Assembly: GCA_903928895.1 (NCBI GenBank)
Contig: CAIYSR010000095.1
Span: forward strand, 1-64,000
Length of the DNA: 64,000 nucleotides
DNA from: an uncultured Rhodospirillales bacterium
GTDB lineage: Bacteria; Pseudomonadota; Alphaproteobacteria; Acetobacterales; Acetobacteraceae
Reading direction: 5' to 3'
Part shown: in pieces, positions 14,438-19,701 of the stretch
Position numbering within the stretch: position 1 is the stretch's first letter
Layout of the letters: every line of letters begins with the position of its first letter
Made by a program: the position numbers and the translations under genes
The notes under the pieces: model-generated
Told to the model about the DNA's origin: nothing
The model's input: only the letters and a program-made list of their open reading frames with translations
Database searches by the model: none

Positions 14438-15726
14438 CGTCCCGCCCGTTTTTCGACGCCATCGAGCAGGCCTCGCGTGACGAAATCACCGCCCTGCAAA
14501 CCGAGCGTCTGCGCTGGTCGCTGCACCGTGCCTACGGCCAGATCCCACACTACCGCCAGGCCTTCGACGCCGCCGGCGTCCATCCCGAAGACCTCAGGAG
14601 CTTGGCGGACCTGGCCAAGTTCCCGTTCACCACCAAGCACACGTTGCGCGACAACTACCCTTTCGGCATGTTCGCGGTCCCGCGCGCAGCCATCGCCCGC
14701 ATCCACGCCTCGTCGGGCACCACGGGCAAGCCCACTGTCGTCGGCTACACGCTGAAGGACATCGAGACCTGGGCGCATCTTGTCGCCCGCTCGATCTACG
14801 CGGCCGGTGGGCGGCCGGGCATGGCCGTCCATGTCGCCTACGGCTACGGCCTGTTCACTGGCGGCCTTGGCGCCCATTACGGGGCGGAACGGCTGGGCTG
14901 CACCGTGATCCCGATCTCGGGCGGGCAGACCGAGAAGCAGGTCCAGCTCATCAATGATTTCCGCCCCGACATCATCATGGTGACGCCGAGCTACATGCTT
15001 GCCATCCTCGACCATTTCCGCGCTGCCGGCCTCGATCCGCGTGCCAGTTCTCTGAAAACTGGTATTTTCGGGGCCGAGCCCTGGACCAACGCGATGCGCG
15101 GCGAGATCGAGCAGTCCTTTGCGATGGATGCCGTCGACATCTACGGCTTGTCCGAGGTCATGGGCCCCGGCGTCGCCCAGGAATGCGTGGAAACCAAGGA
15201 CGGGTTGCACATCTGGGAGGATCATTTCTACCCGGAGGTGATTGACCCCGTGACGGGAGCGGTCCTGCCGGACGGCGAACCGGGTGAGCTCGTCTTTACC
15301 GCGCTCAGCAAGGAGGCGATGCCCGTCATCCGCTACCGCACGCGCGATCTCACCCGCCTGTTGCCCGGCACCGCCCGCAGCATGCGGCGGATGGAGAAAG
15401 TCACCGGGCGCTCTGACGACATGCTCATTGTCCGCGGCGTCAACGTCTTCCCCACCCAGGTCGAAGACCAGATTCTCCGCTTCGACGCGTTGGCCGGCCA
15501 TTATCAAATCATCCTCAGCCGCGAAGGCCGCATGGACGACATGGAAGTCCAGGTGGAAGCCCGTGCGGAATTCTTCGGCCCCGCATCGGACGAGCAGGGC
15601 GGCGCCCTGGCCGTTCGCATCAAGGAACTCATTGGCGTTACTGCCCGCGTAACGGTGCTCGCTCCCGGCGCCGTCGAACGCTCCCTCGGCAAAGCCAAAC
15701 GCGTCATCGATCGCCGCCAAGGTTGA
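14434..15726 (+). CDS. paaK: Phenylacetate-CoA ligase
   Basis: A 430-residue AMP-forming ligase that converts phenylacetate to phenylacetyl-CoA in the cytoplasm, the entry step of the aerobic pathway. Visible motifs: P-loop SSGTTGKPTVVGYT near residue 92, YGLSEVMGPGVAQEC near 236, the hinge and ATP-ribose site YRTRDLTRLLPG near 303, and the C-terminal GRSDDMLIVRGVNVFPTQVE segment. The length is normal for PaaK. The ATG overlaps the paaI stop. A 350-base gap follows. Confidence 0.95.
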   Translation: MTSRPFFDAIEQASRDEITALQTERLRWSLHRAYGQIPHYRQAFDAAGVHPEDLRSLADLAKFPFTTKHTLRDNYPFGMFAVPRAAIARIHASSGTTGKPTVVGYTLKDIETWAHLVARSIYAAGGRPGMAVHVAYGYGLFTGGLGAHYGAERLGCTVIPISGGQTEKQVQLINDFRPDIIMVTPSYMLAILDHFRAAGLDPRASSLKTGIFGAEPWTNAMRGEIEQSFAMDAVDIYGLSEVMGPGVAQECVETKDGLHIWEDHFYPEVIDPVTGAVLPDGEPGELVFTALSKEAMPVIRYRTRDLTRLLPGTARSMRRMEKVTGRSDDMLIVRGVNVFPTQVEDQILRFDALAGHYQIILSREGRMDDMEVQVEARAEFFGPASDEQGGALAVRIKELIGVTARVTVLAPGAVERSLGKAKRVIDRRQG

Positions 15727-16076
15727 TCCGACACCCCGCTTGCCGCCATGCCGATGATTGTCCGACTGCCGGACTCGTCGGTGGCGTCTGAGTCACATGG
15801 CGCATTCCGCGACGCGGCAACTTTGGACCCTTTGGTCGTGCAAGAGGCCGGCGTTGGCCGGCGTGAGCGACGGCCAAATCACACTTAAGTGTCACTTAGA
15901 CGACCTCGTTACGGCCCGCGGCGGCCCGATTCCCGTTGAGAACTGCCGCGGCCAACCGCTATTCTTGGGCGGGAGCGGTAGGTTTTGCCGAATACCGCGG
16001 AACGTGTTTTGAACCAATAGGCCAGTTGTACGGAAATTCTAACGAATATCTGGTGGATCATTTGGAGATGAGTGGT
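15727..16076. other. Intergenic stretch upstream of the modular repeat protein
   Basis: About 350 bases. It holds the CACTTA/TAAGTG palindrome cluster at 15881-15898, annotated separately, and a T/A-richer stretch at 15970-16070 compared with the flanking genes, as expected for a promoter region. GGAAC at 15999-16003 recalls the -35 of extracytoplasmic stress sigma promoters, but no matching -10 sits at the right distance. No other gene is seen. Confidence 0.5.
15881..15898. promoter_or_regulatory. Operator-like palindrome cluster (CACTTA half-sites)
   Basis: ACACTTAAGTGT at 15881-15892 is a perfect 12-base palindrome. A third half-site CACTTA at 15893-15898 makes a second, overlapping inverted repeat TAAGTG-T-CACTTA at 15886-15898. 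Three regularly placed half-sites in otherwise GC-rich DNA, about 180 bases before the gene at 16077, look like a regulator-binding site. The regulator is unknown, and the distance is long for a simple operator. Confidence 0.4.
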
Positions 16077-18146
16077 ATGTCTTATTCTGGCTCTGACGCC
16101 GACAAGAAGATCGCCTGGTACTCGAAGCTCGGCGTTAAACAATTGCCGGCCTATGGCGGCACCCAGACGACGTCGACCAATCCAACGCCCAGCTTCTCGC
16201 CCCCGTCCACGACGCCCGCGCCGTCCTCCTCCAAGGGCACCGGCGCCGGCCTGAGCGCCGGCGGTTCGAGCAGTTCCAATACGCCGCGCACATCGCCCTC
16301 CGACACTCCGACGCCGACGACGAGCCCGAGTCAGTCGCCAAACCAGCCTTCCAGCGGCCCTAACCAGCCCTCGGTTGGCCCTAGCACGCCATCTGCCCCG
16401 CCCAATCAGCCCTCGACCGAGCCGAGCCGGCCGAGCACCGCGGAGGACCCGACTCCGTCCGCACCGAACCAGCCTTCCAGCGGCCCCAACCAGCCCTCGG
16501 TTGGCCCGAACACGCCATCTGCCCCGCCTAATCAGCCCTCGACCGAGCCGAGCCGGCCGAGCACCGCCGAGGACCCGACTCCGTCCGCGCCGAACCAGCC
16601 CTCCAGCGGTCCCAGCCAGCCCTCGGTCGGCCCGAGCACCCCGTCCGTCTCGCCCAATCAGCCCTCGACCGAGCCGAGCCGGCCGAGCACCGCCGAGGAT
16701 CCGTCGCCGTCGACGCCGAACCAGCCGAGTTCCGACCCCAGCCAGTCGCCTGCCACCGAAACCGCCCCCAGCCTGCCGCGTGGCAGTGGCAAGGGCGCCG
16801 GCCTCAGCCAGGGCGGCGGTGACCCCTCGCCCAGTCCGACCGGCCCCAGCACGGCGGAGAGCGATCGTCCGGCCCCGAGCCCGAGCCCCGATACCCCACC
16901 CGTCGCCCCGAATCCGCCGGAGGATGGCGGAGGAGGCGTGGTCGACACCGCCTCTGAGGGTGCCGAACGCATCCGCGATGCGGCCCAGGATGGCGTCGAC
17001 AACGTCACCGAGACCGCGTCCGACGCCGCGTCGGACGTGCGTGACACTTGGGACCGCAGCGCCGCGCCGGCGGTCGACGAGGCCGTCCAGACCGTGCAGG
17101 ACATGCGCGGCGCGATCGCCGACGTCCGCGACACCGCGATCGATGCCGGCGGCAAGGTCGCCGGCACCATGGCCGACGGTGCCGGACGCATTGCCGATGC
17201 CGTCGAGCACGCCAAGAGCGGCGAGGGCAGCATGCAGGACGTAATCGACACCGTCGCGGACGTACAGTCCGACGTGCGGGACCGGGTCGAGGACGGGATC
17301 GCCAAGGTGCGCGATACCGCGATCGACGATGCGAAGGAGGTGCTCCAGGAGGGCGCCAATGCCGCTTCGGACGCCGTCGCCGCGGCGCGCGACGTCGGCG
17401 GCGCAATGGGCGAGGGCGCCCGCGATGTCATCGATTCCGCGATCGAGGCGCGTGACAAGGTGGTCGACACCACCATCGACGCGGCCCGCGACACCGCCGC
17501 CGCGGCGCGGGAGGAATTGAACCAGATCGGCGCCGATGCCGTCACCGACGTTCACCAGCTCAGCGACGATGCCGCCAGCAAGGCCGGCGAGATCGCCTCC
17601 GACGCGGCCGACCAGGCCAGGCAGGCTGCCTCCGATCTGTCCGATCTCGGCGGCAAGATGGCCGATGTTGCGATCGATACCGCACGTGAAACGGCGGACA
17701 GGGCGAACGAGATCATCAGCGACGTCCGCGATCAGGTCAACGAGGTGATCGACAACACCATCCAAACCGTGACCGACACGGCGCGCGACGTGGCCAAGGC
17801 GGTTGAGGACGGCGGCGCCGTCAACGCTGAGGACGCGGCCGCCGATAGCGGCGACGGTAGCTCGGACGCCAGCGCAGACGGCTCCAACCAGGACGGCGAC
17901 GCCGGCGGCCAGGATGGATCGGGCCAGGATGGCGACGGTTCGAGCGACCGCGGCGGTGGCGGTGGTGAAGATGGTGGCCAGGACGGATCGGGCCAGGATG
18001 GAGGTCGCGACGAGCCGGCCCCGGCGGATGACGGCGGCGGTGGTGGCGGCGGTGACGGAGGCGGTGACGGCGGCGGCGGCGGCGGTGGTGACGGTGGCGG
18101 TGGCGATGCACCGGCCGAGACGCAACAGCCGGCCGACGGCAGTTAG
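16077..18146 (+). CDS. Modular low-complexity protein: Pro/Ser repeats, LEA-like helices, Gly/Asp tail
   Basis: A 689-residue protein I cannot assign to a family. Layout: a short unique head (residues 1-30, KIAWYSKLGVKQLPAYGG); a Pro/Ser/Thr-rich zone (31-285) with three 42-residue repeats starting NQPSSGPNQPSVGP at residues 89, 131 and 173 plus a partial fourth; a long amphipathic, Ala/Asp-rich helical zone (about 287-575) with recurring units such as VRDTAIDAGGKV and VDTTIDAARDTA; and an acidic Gly-rich tail (576-689). The motif KG(T)GAGLS(A/Q)GG flanks the repeats on both sides. There is no signal peptide or membrane helix. The helical part resembles LEA or apolipoprotein-type sequence in composition only. 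The ATG at 16077 has GGAG 9 bases upstream. Probably cytoplasmic and intrinsically disordered. Confidence 0.75.
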   Translation: MSYSGSDADKKIAWYSKLGVKQLPAYGGTQTTSTNPTPSFSPPSTTPAPSSSKGTGAGLSAGGSSSSNTPRTSPSDTPTPTTSPSQSPNQPSSGPNQPSVGPSTPSAPPNQPSTEPSRPSTAEDPTPSAPNQPSSGPNQPSVGPNTPSAPPNQPSTEPSRPSTAEDPTPSAPNQPSSGPSQPSVGPSTPSVSPNQPSTEPSRPSTAEDPSPSTPNQPSSDPSQSPATETAPSLPRGSGKGAGLSQGGGDPSPSPTGPSTAESDRPAPSPSPDTPPVAPNPPEDGGGGVVDTASEGAERIRDAAQDGVDNVTETASDAASDVRDTWDRSAAPAVDEAVQTVQDMRGAIADVRDTAIDAGGKVAGTMADGAGRIADAVEHAKSGEGSMQDVIDTVADVQSDVRDRVEDGIAKVRDTAIDDAKEVLQEGANAASDAVAAARDVGGAMGEGARDVIDSAIEARDKVVDTTIDAARDTAAAAREELNQIGADAVTDVHQLSDDAASKAGEIASDAADQARQAASDLSDLGGKMADVAIDTARETADRANEIISDVRDQVNEVIDNTIQTVTDTARDVAKAVEDGGAVNAEDAAADSGDGSSDASADGSNQDGDAGGQDGSGQDGDGSSDRGGGGGEDGGQDGSGQDGGRDEPAPADDGGGGGGGDGGGDGGGGGGGDGGGGDAPAETQQPADGS
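16341..16790 (+). repeat. 126-bp tandem repeat, three full copies and a partial fourth
   Basis: Copies begin at 16341, 16467 and 16593 with the same first bases (AACCAGCC), and a fourth, diverging copy starts at 16719. The exact 126-base period keeps the reading frame (42 codons). The copies differ by scattered, mainly silent substitutions, so the array is not a fresh assembly artefact. Copy number is likely to vary among strains. Confidence 0.9.
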
Positions 18147-18246
18147 CCCATCCTTTCCACCCGAATGCGCCGAGCCACAGCCGCAATGTCCGGCAACGCG
18201 GTCCTGCCCTTGGGGTGTGAAGCGGACCTCCGCTTGTGAGGTCGCC

Positions 18247-19701
18247 TCAGCCGGCGAGCCAGGGGTTGGGATCGAGGGGGGCGATCGGGCGGCGGATTTT
18301 CGTATAGGGAATACGCGCCGGGTCGGGCGGGTAGGGACCGCCGCAATCGACGTAGATGACGGCCGTGGCGAGTGGGGCGAAGGCGGCGTAGAAATGGTTG
18401 GAGGACTTGACCACCACCACTTTCTTCGCCGTGAGGTCAATGCCGAGCCGCGTAAACACCGCCGGGTTGAAGGTCTGAGCCCGCCCGCTCGCCAGCACCA
18501 CGTCCAGTCCGCCGATGCGGATGGCCGCCGCGGCGCCGAGCGAAACGGTGGACTGCTCGAAGGGGATGACAAGGTCATCCGTGGTGGCGATCACCTCCAC
18601 ATCGGCGTCGATCGGAGCGCCCGAAGTGGCAGCGGCCTTGCCGCCGAAGCGCAGCGGCATGCGCGCGCCGGGGCCGGCGGCGCGGCAGAACTGAACGGCC
18701 ACGGGGTCCCACAACGCACCGACCGCGGCGGGCACCTCCGGGTGCTTCAACAGTTCGGCGATTAGGAAGGTGCTGTCGCCGGCGACGCCGCCGCCCGGAT
18801 TGTCCCACCGGTCGGCCAATACCACCGGGCCACCGGGCAGGCGGATCGCCTCGGCGACGGCCTCGGCGGTCTTGAGATGGACCGGCACGCCGGCGTCACC
18901 CCATGCGATCAGTTCGCGCCCCAGGCACTCCGCCAGGACCGCGGCCTGTGCCCGGTCGCGCTCGGCGTAGACCAGGACCTTGGTGCCGACGTCGTACACA
19001 TCGGCGGCCTGGAAGCCATGGATGACGGAAATCGAGAGGATGCCGTCGCGTCCCTCCATCGCGATGAGGCGATCGACGAAGCCACGGCCAGGCTCGCGGC
19101 TGGTCATGTAGCCGCCGATCATGCGGCAGTCGAATACGGCAGCGGCAGGATGGATCTCGCCCCGTGCCTGGCGCAGGCACAGCGCCACCAGCTCTTCCGC
19201 TCGGGCGAGGAAGTCGGTGTGCGGGAATTCCTTGAAGGCGATGACGACGTCGGCATTCGCGACCATGGTCTCCGAGAGATGGGCGTGCAGGTCCAGCTCG
19301 GCGCCTATCACCGCGCTGGGGGCGATCTCCCGGGCGCGCCGGATCAGGTCGCCCTCGCAGTCGTCATAGCCGTGGGCGACCATGGCGCCGTGCAGGCCGA
19401 GCAGGATCACATCGAGCGGCAGTGCGGCGCGCAACTGATCGAGGATCTCATCGCGCAGTCCCTCGTATGTCGCGCGGCCGACCAGGCCGGCAGGCTCGGC
19501 CCAGGTGGCGGTGCCCTCGATCAGCGTGTGCCCACCGGCAGCCGCCGCGTGGCGGGCGGCGACCAGCGGGGCGCTGCACAGGGTCGGTGCGCCGGGATGG
19601 GTGCCGGGTGGGTAATAGGCGTGCGCGAAGGCGCTGCGGTCGGTCGGGATTGGGGCGAAGGTATTGGTTTCGGTGCCGAGGCTGGCGGCGAAAATACGCA
19701 C
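18247..19701 (-). CDS. M81 family metallopeptidase (MlrC-like)
   Basis: A 484-residue protein of the M81/MlrC family. The N-terminal DUF1485 domain starts with the characteristic ASLGTETNTFAPIPT. Candidate zinc ligands are seen in LLGLHGAMVAHGYDDCEGD near residue 105 and ELDLHAHLSETM near 140. The C-terminal MlrC domain begins near residue 290 with DRWDNPGGGVAGDSTF. MlrC cleaves the linear tetrapeptide in microcystin breakdown, but most family members occur beside peptide transporters and have unknown substrates, and no mlrA or mlrB is present here. The gene lies 3 bases after a family-5 binding-protein gene on the same strand, so it probably acts on what that protein imports. Confidence 0.92.
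   Translation of the reverse strand: MRIFAASLGTETNTFAPIPTDRSAFAHAYYPPGTHPGAPTLCSAPLVAARHAAAAGGHTLIEGTATWAEPAGLVGRATYEGLRDEILDQLRAALPLDVILLGLHGAMVAHGYDDCEGDLIRRAREIAPSAVIGAELDLHAHLSETMVANADVVIAFKEFPHTDFLARAEELVALCLRQARGEIHPAAAVFDCRMIGGYMTSREPGRGFVDRLIAMEGRDGILSISVIHGFQAADVYDVGTKVLVYAERDRAQAAVLAECLGRELIAWGDAGVPVHLKTAEAVAEAIRLPGGPVVLADRWDNPGGGVAGDSTFLIAELLKHPEVPAAVGALWDPVAVQFCRAAGPGARMPLRFGGKAAATSGAPIDADVEVIATTDDLVIPFEQSTVSLGAAAAIRIGGLDVVLASGRAQTFNPAVFTRLGIDLTAKKVVVVKSSNHFYAAFAPLATAVIYVDCGGPYPPDPARIPYTKIRRPIAPLDPNPWLAG

Follow-up and report, generated by a model that had tools for sequence, protein, structure and literature searches.

An orphan acidic protein with a long amphipathic helical array, possibly a phasin-like coat, from an uncultured Rhodospirillales bacterium

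A gene for a 689-residue orphan protein is present in a 64,000-nucleotide stretch of DNA from an uncultured Rhodospirillales bacterium (the whole stretch is called the window below). The gene is real, purifying selection acts on its sense frame, and its product consists of a small cationic head, a Pro-rich tether, a long amphipathic helical array, and an acidic Gly tail (Table 1). The protein is also rare and restricted to a narrow lineage. The explanation that we favor, tentatively, is that it might work in the manner of a phasin, as a tethered protein that coats or shields a hydrophobic interface free of phospholipids, for instance a PHA granule. Several other readings can be given to the same features, and each is weighed below alongside the evidence that bears on it.

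Table 1. Positions of the gene, its modules, and neighboring elements in the window
Feature	Position	Strand	Remark
Orphan protein gene	16077-18146	+	689 aa
Promoter-like TTGAGA-N18-TATTCT	15936-15965	+	Ortholog TTGAGA-N18-TATTAC
Conserved cationic, aromatic head, residues 1-28	16077-16160	+	68% identity to ortholog
First Gly motif KGTGAGLSAGG, residue 53	16233-16265	+	Ortholog GTGAGIAGG
Pro/Ser tandem repeat, 126 bp (42 aa) x 3.1	16336-16726	+	Tandem Repeats Finder, 90% matches
Second Gly motif GKGAGLSQGG, residue 238	16788-16817	+	Ortholog GTGPGLRGGG
Amphipathic helical array, residues 285-579	16929-17813	+	Hydropathy period 3.64, acidic polar face
Acidic Gly/Asp tail, residues 576-670, length variable	17802-18086	+	Composition, ortholog alignment
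Conserved C-terminal end, residues 671-689	18087-18143	+	Contains DAPAExQQPA; 79% identity
45-bp scar; the parent repeat is multicopy in genome G002	18148-18192	.	91% identity (41/45)

The Gene and Its Modular Product

An ortholog of 592 residues, with its modules in the same order, is encoded in a metagenome-assembled genome of the same genus (uncultured Rhodospirillales bacterium MAG, AlinenLipids_bin-4869; record CAIMWH010000102.1; called G002 below). Over 291 array codons compared between the window and this ortholog, dN/dS in the sense frame is 0.35 by the NG86 method and 0.23 by YN00. A long antisense ORF (15909-18578, 889 aa) was considered as the true gene and rejected, given that Pfam returns nothing for it at E<=1 and that its reading of the array has a dN/dS of ~1.2. 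A different antisense frame, whose third positions coincide with those of the sense frame, yields the expected low value (0.40). A GGAG lies 9 nt 5' of the ATG at 16077. An alternative in-frame ATG at 16068 is possible, and the ortholog has an ATG at the equivalent place that is out of frame.

An initial annotation had described an ORF of 689 residues carrying three 42-residue Pro/Ser units, an Ala/Asp array of ~290 residues, and an acidic Gly tail. All of these are seen, and the two conserved ends (residues 1-28 and 671-689) had been missed. The order of the modules, which was said to be fixed, is indeed the same in the ortholog, but the three-fold Pro/Ser repeat is absent there and thus is not constant within the family. 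Identity in the repeat zone is 39% over 90 aligned positions with 58 gaps. Similarly, a KGxGAGLSxGG motif had been proposed to bracket the repeats; the copy at residue 53 fits this pattern exactly, whereas the copy at residue 238 departs from it. Both Gly motifs hold the same places in the ortholog. The head, the array, and the C-terminus are conserved between the two proteins, and the linkers differ in length and sequence. Residues 576-689 are 40% Gly and 20% Asp, with a net charge of -26.

The protein has no membrane helix, as had been claimed, with the highest 19-residue Kyte-Doolittle mean reaching only 0.41. It also contains no Cys and few aromatic residues, and a charge-hydropathy plot places it on the disordered side. 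The proposal of a large disordered protein holds for the regions outside the array, since the full-length AlphaFold2 model shows coil on both sides of residues 286-579, but the ~290-residue array is predicted with low confidence to be helical. Extended helices appear in the arrays of both AlphaFold2 models, whose mean pLDDT values are low (49 and 50).

The Amphipathic Array

Residues 287-575 are 21% Ala and 17% Asp, with a net charge of -37, and the array (residues 285-575) is 61.5% identical to that of the ortholog. Its hydropathy has a period of 3.635 residues with a power of 41.6, compared to a maximum of 9.2 among 300 shuffles that were scanned over a coarser period grid than the real array. 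The corresponding values for the ortholog are a period of 3.64 and a power of 51.3 versus a shuffle maximum of 10.6. These best periods fall between 3.6 and 11/3. On a helical wheel, Ala, Val, and Ile occupy one side and Asp and Glu lie opposite. Near array residues 66-99 the phase shifts by ~100 degrees and then drifts back, with a nearly identical course in the ortholog, and the difference in length between the two arrays is exactly 11 residues, or three turns. The mean hydrophobic moment is 0.37 (ortholog 0.40) in 18-residue windows at 99 degrees per residue. Net charge is approximately -4.4 per 33 residues (ortholog -4.9), compared to -0.4, -0.2, and -0.2 in three phasins from the same genus. 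A lipid-binding score D was calculated with a cut-off of 0.68. The cut-off is exceeded in 0 of 278 windows of the array, 5 of 288 of the ortholog array, and 16 of 160 windows in one of the two phasins of the window's own genome.

Some of these features would suit a LEA-like shield against desiccation or freezing, a reading that we rank second, ahead of the scaffold discussed below, and consider somewhat unlikely. Such a protein would be soluble and mostly unfolded, would become helical on drying, and would keep proteins and membranes apart. The amphipathic array agrees with this function, as do hydropathy correlations of 0.40 at lag 11 and 0.35 at lag 22 (0.44 and 0.49 in the ortholog), although the correlations at lags 7 and 18 are similar. 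The lack of Cys, the scarcity of aromatic residues, and the position on the charge-hydropathy plot also point in this direction, and the low lipid-binding score suits a soluble protein. The Gly content (13.4%, ortholog 14.2%) lies above the limit of one hydrophilin definition, namely Gly >6%, GRAVY < -1, and mean hydrophilicity >1 (PMC4190154), but GRAVY values of -0.84 and -0.70 for the two proteins miss the limit. Furthermore, LEA_4 (PF02987) has no match at E<=1 in the window's own genome or in G002, nor in Pfam scans of the protein, the ortholog, or the array. The resemblance to LEA proteins that had been suggested from the sequence is therefore not borne out by either measure. LEA_4 repeats are described as having regularly repeating Lys (PMC8096337), whereas residues 285-579 include only 8 Lys. 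A LEA-like shield also leaves the conserved head and C-terminus unexplained, and no stress promoter is recognized upstream of the gene.

Family Searches and Reversed-Sequence Controls

Searches of Pfam, NCBIfam, and PHROGs with the protein, and of Pfam with the ortholog, place no family above its curated cut-off where such a cut-off exists. This upholds the original statement that the protein fits no known family, and the helical zone finds no clear match to a named one. The NCBIfam matches, like those in Pfam, all lie under their cut-offs. Among the sub-threshold Pfam scores for the whole protein are Apolipoprotein at 26.1 bits (cut-off 90), Senescence at 18.0 (24.6), and Phasin_2 at 15.7 (24.9), and the list for the ortholog is similar but longer. 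When the window array is searched alone, Apolipoprotein (PF01442) gives 31.2 bits against the cut-off of 90 and Phasin_2 (PF09361) gives 21.8 bits against 24.9. The ortholog scores 29.5 and 18.0 bits with these two families.

A reversed array retains the composition, the periodicity, and the spacing of nearby residues, whereas any trace of ancestry is lost. The reversed arrays score 34.6 and 37.9 bits with Apolipoprotein and 17.6 and 22.7 bits with Phasin_2, which is the same range as the real window array. Homology to apolipoproteins or phasins is therefore left unsupported, because matches that survive reversal are no evidence of descent, and the apolipoprotein resemblance noted in the initial annotation likewise does not indicate kinship. 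Neither of two shuffled versions of the window array, one preserving global phase and one full, matches any family. Since reversals match and shuffles do not, local order is needed for these matches, beyond composition and global phase. Thus, caution is warranted with such proteins, for which weak apolipoprotein or phasin profile matches are unfit as a basis for naming when a reversed array scores about equally.

Matches to phage tail tape-measure families were also examined. Full-length queries match phrog_167 at 1.4e-8 and, for the ortholog, at 2.9e-13, which might suggest that the protein is a remnant or relative of a tape-measure protein. The ortholog value is clearly better than that of its reversed array with the same family (4.1e-5). 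Array-only reversed queries nonetheless match tape-measure families too, more weakly than forward sequences do, with best values of 4.3e-5 and 1.6e-6. None of the six flanking proteins scanned is a phage structural protein, no relative is present in phage records or viral contigs, and the protein has no membrane segment and an array flanked by Pro/Ser and Gly/Asp modules. Origin from, or kinship with, a tape-measure protein is judged very improbable.

Searches for structural relatives were negative as well. The best sequence match in the PDB has an E value of 0.083, and a fold search, for which the query was a low-confidence model, gave 0 matches at E<=0.001.

The Conserved Head and the Separation of Charge

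The head is the sole cationic module, with a net charge of +2 (ortholog +3) compared to -73 for the remainder of each protein, and four of the six aromatic residues lie within it (four of five in the ortholog). It was considered as an N-terminal amphipathic membrane anchor, which its charge would fit, and this role was rejected because its hydrophobic moment is not above that of shuffled sequences. Among 2000 shuffles for each of the two proteins, 894 and 946 reach the moment, so the head does not qualify as an amphipathic helix.

One explanation for the head is that the protein is a self-assembling scaffold or forms a condensate, in which each head would bind a neighboring molecule at its acidic array or tail and the Pro/Ser zone would be a spacer. 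The extreme and conserved charge separation between 28 residues and the rest argues for this arrangement, along with the concentration of aromatic residues in the head and the conservation of head, array, and C-terminus while linkers vary. However, a large excess of negative charge would persist after heads had paired with arrays, and the head does not form an amphipathic helix. On balance, a scaffold of this kind seems unlikely.

Distribution

A search of five genus genomes with the first 63 residues yields strong matches in two, which are the window's own genome and G002 (E 3.2e-13). The best E values in the other three congeners are 0.024-0.124. Of the weak candidates from this search and from the head search of 150 family genomes described below, seven loci were translated from the frame of the match start and two more were inspected as ORFs, and the motif is present in none of these nine. 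The two ORFs are presumably AMP-binding ligases, as identified by eye. The array profile has strong matches in 2 of 397 family genomes, again the window's own and G002, and five others score 20.7-23.8 bits with partial coverage of the array. Among 385 class genomes that include the window's own, that genome has the only strong match and six matches are weak. Beyond it, no strong array match occurs in any of the 384 class genomes, where, as in the family search, at most five or six first-look candidates per genome were scored, such that weak relatives could escape.

Earlier samples of 150 family genomes gave comparable results, with the array (E<=1e-5) found in the window's own genome alone and the head giving a match there along with nine weak ones at E 0.0085-0.043. 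No relatives are found in plasmids, phage records, or viral contigs. Of two scans of genome contigs, the first revealed no relative and the second revealed one, the G002 record. Lack of the gene in all relatives, together with lack of a transcript, had been named as grounds for doubting it, and the congener with an ortholog of the same layout speaks against that doubt.

Upstream Region and Genomic Setting

The promoter-like site is at -141 in the window and at -145 in the ortholog, with TTGAGA-N18-TATT as the common core. When the two genes are compared over the 143 nt 5' of the ATG, the alignment score is reached by 3 of 500 shuffles, whereas the score for the next 157 nt upstream is reached by 338 of 500. 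Thus, the promoter-like site, leader, and gene constitute a conserved unit, and their surroundings are not conserved. An EcfG stress promoter was considered and rejected, as an upstream GGAAC has no fitting second box. A palindrome around CACTTAAGTG (15871-15902) lies 5' of the promoter-like site, beyond the stretch that is shared with the ortholog, and could be an operator.

The gene is flanked in the window by an AMP-binding ligase gene on one side and an M81/MlrC gene on the other. The six flanking proteins scanned are enzymes, a member of a peptidase family, and a solute-binding protein. Both flanks are present in four of four congeners at 78-81% identity, on different contigs. Homology to the congeners ends between 15599 and 15716 and restarts at 18237-18259. 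Other, collinear genes are common beside the M81 gene in the four congeners, so the two flanks are not neighbors there, despite fragmented assemblies. By this comparison, the window has a different arrangement and the gene sits at a rearrangement junction (15716-18259). Further, diverged matches to the M81/MlrC gene (64-72% DNA identity) occur in all five genus genomes.

In G002, the ortholog gene is on another contig in different surroundings, beside genes that we take by eye to encode a LOG-family protein and a histidine kinase. The 45-bp scar in the window starts one base past the stop codon. The G002 repeat that it resembles has 18 full-length matches listed, and each of the 16 copies fetched carries it. 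All 16 are at contig ends and have ~130 bp in common, and the repeat is probably the end of an insertion sequence. Elsewhere, another contig of the window's genome contains an open frame of 1841 aa with repeated domains and a Gly/Asp calcium-binding-like stretch, which by eye is probably a large adhesin.

A Possible Coat for a Hydrophobic Interface

If the protein is a coat, the array would lie along a hydrophobic surface by its Ala/Val/Ile side, with the Asp/Glu side turned toward the cytoplasm. The Pro/Ser tether and the acidic Gly tail might then constitute a charged, hydrated brush that prevents surfaces from merging or sticking, and the cationic aromatic head could dock on a partner such as the acidic array of a neighbor, the nucleoid, or a membrane. 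The likeliest surface would be a PHA granule or some other hydrophobic body that lacks phospholipids. Surface binding, the identity of the surface, and docking of the head are what we infer from the observed layout, conservation, periodicity, and charge pattern. Such a protein would be phasin-like in its working, cytoplasmic, and lineage-restricted, and it is not indicated to be a phasin by descent.

Strong amphipathicity, phase shifts that are nearly alike in both orthologs, and purifying selection on the frame are consistent with a coat. Selected helices of PhaP1 from R. eutropha have hydrophobic moments of 0.34-0.40, and the same source describes PhaF as an amphipathic helix that binds PHA, fused to a charged segment that binds DNA, and as perhaps being mostly disordered when unbound (PMC5658603). 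Against a coat are the very acidic polar face, the low D score, and a Phasin_2 score below the cut-off. In HeLa cells, the Plin4 helix was reportedly lost from lipid droplets once its net charge per 33-mer was altered from +1 to -1 (PMC5889406). Given this precedent and the acidity of the array, binding to a phospholipid surface should be weakened. PHA granules, in contrast, have been reported to be without phospholipids (PMC4879537), so they would not necessarily repel an acidic helix and the charge objection weighs less there. Canonical phasins are already represented by two Phasin_2 matches in each of five congeners, three of which do not have the orphan gene. No PHA synthase was detected at E<=1e-8 in the six ORFs beside one phasin gene.

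A more elaborate reading, which we consider quite unlikely, is that the protein is the first member of a new family of tethered rods made of acidic helices. Heads would bind the arrays of neighboring molecules, so that charge would hold together a mesh or coat enclosing a hydrophobic body, and the promoter-leader-gene unit would occur at different, rearranged places.

Comparison with Known Systems

PopZ and MamJ are acidic bacterial organizers with acidic, Pro-rich, or repetitive linkers and conserved ends. Their likeness to the orphan protein is one of general description, namely linkers and ends of this kind. The likeness to group 3 LEA proteins and hydrophilins consists of an amphipathic period near 11/3, predicted disorder outside the array, and high Gly. 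The orphan protein differs from them in having no LEA_4 match, few Lys, and a GRAVY outside the hydrophilin range.

Apolipoproteins A1, A4, and E and the giant 11-mer helices of perilipin 4 offer the parallel of a very long, weakly hydrophobic amphipathic stretch. The orphan protein nonetheless falls far below the apolipoprotein cut-off, and its reversed array scores higher than the real one. Plin4 is reported to carry +1 per 33 residues (PMC5889406), unlike the strongly negative orphan array. If the protein does coat granules, bacteria of one narrow lineage would seem to have arrived independently at a giant amphipathic helix of the perilipin 4 type, with the charge inverted.

Phasins, including Phasin_2 members and PhaF of Pseudomonas putida, share with the orphan protein the presence of amphipathic helices, a similar hydrophobic moment, and the absence of a membrane helix. 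PhaF also joins its helix to a charged module (PMC5658603). In contrast to phasins, the orphan protein is about four times as long as the 177-aa phasin read from the same genome, is strongly acidic, has additional Pro/Ser and Gly/Asp modules, and scores below the family cut-off. Overall, it represents an orphan family that employs a known physical principle.
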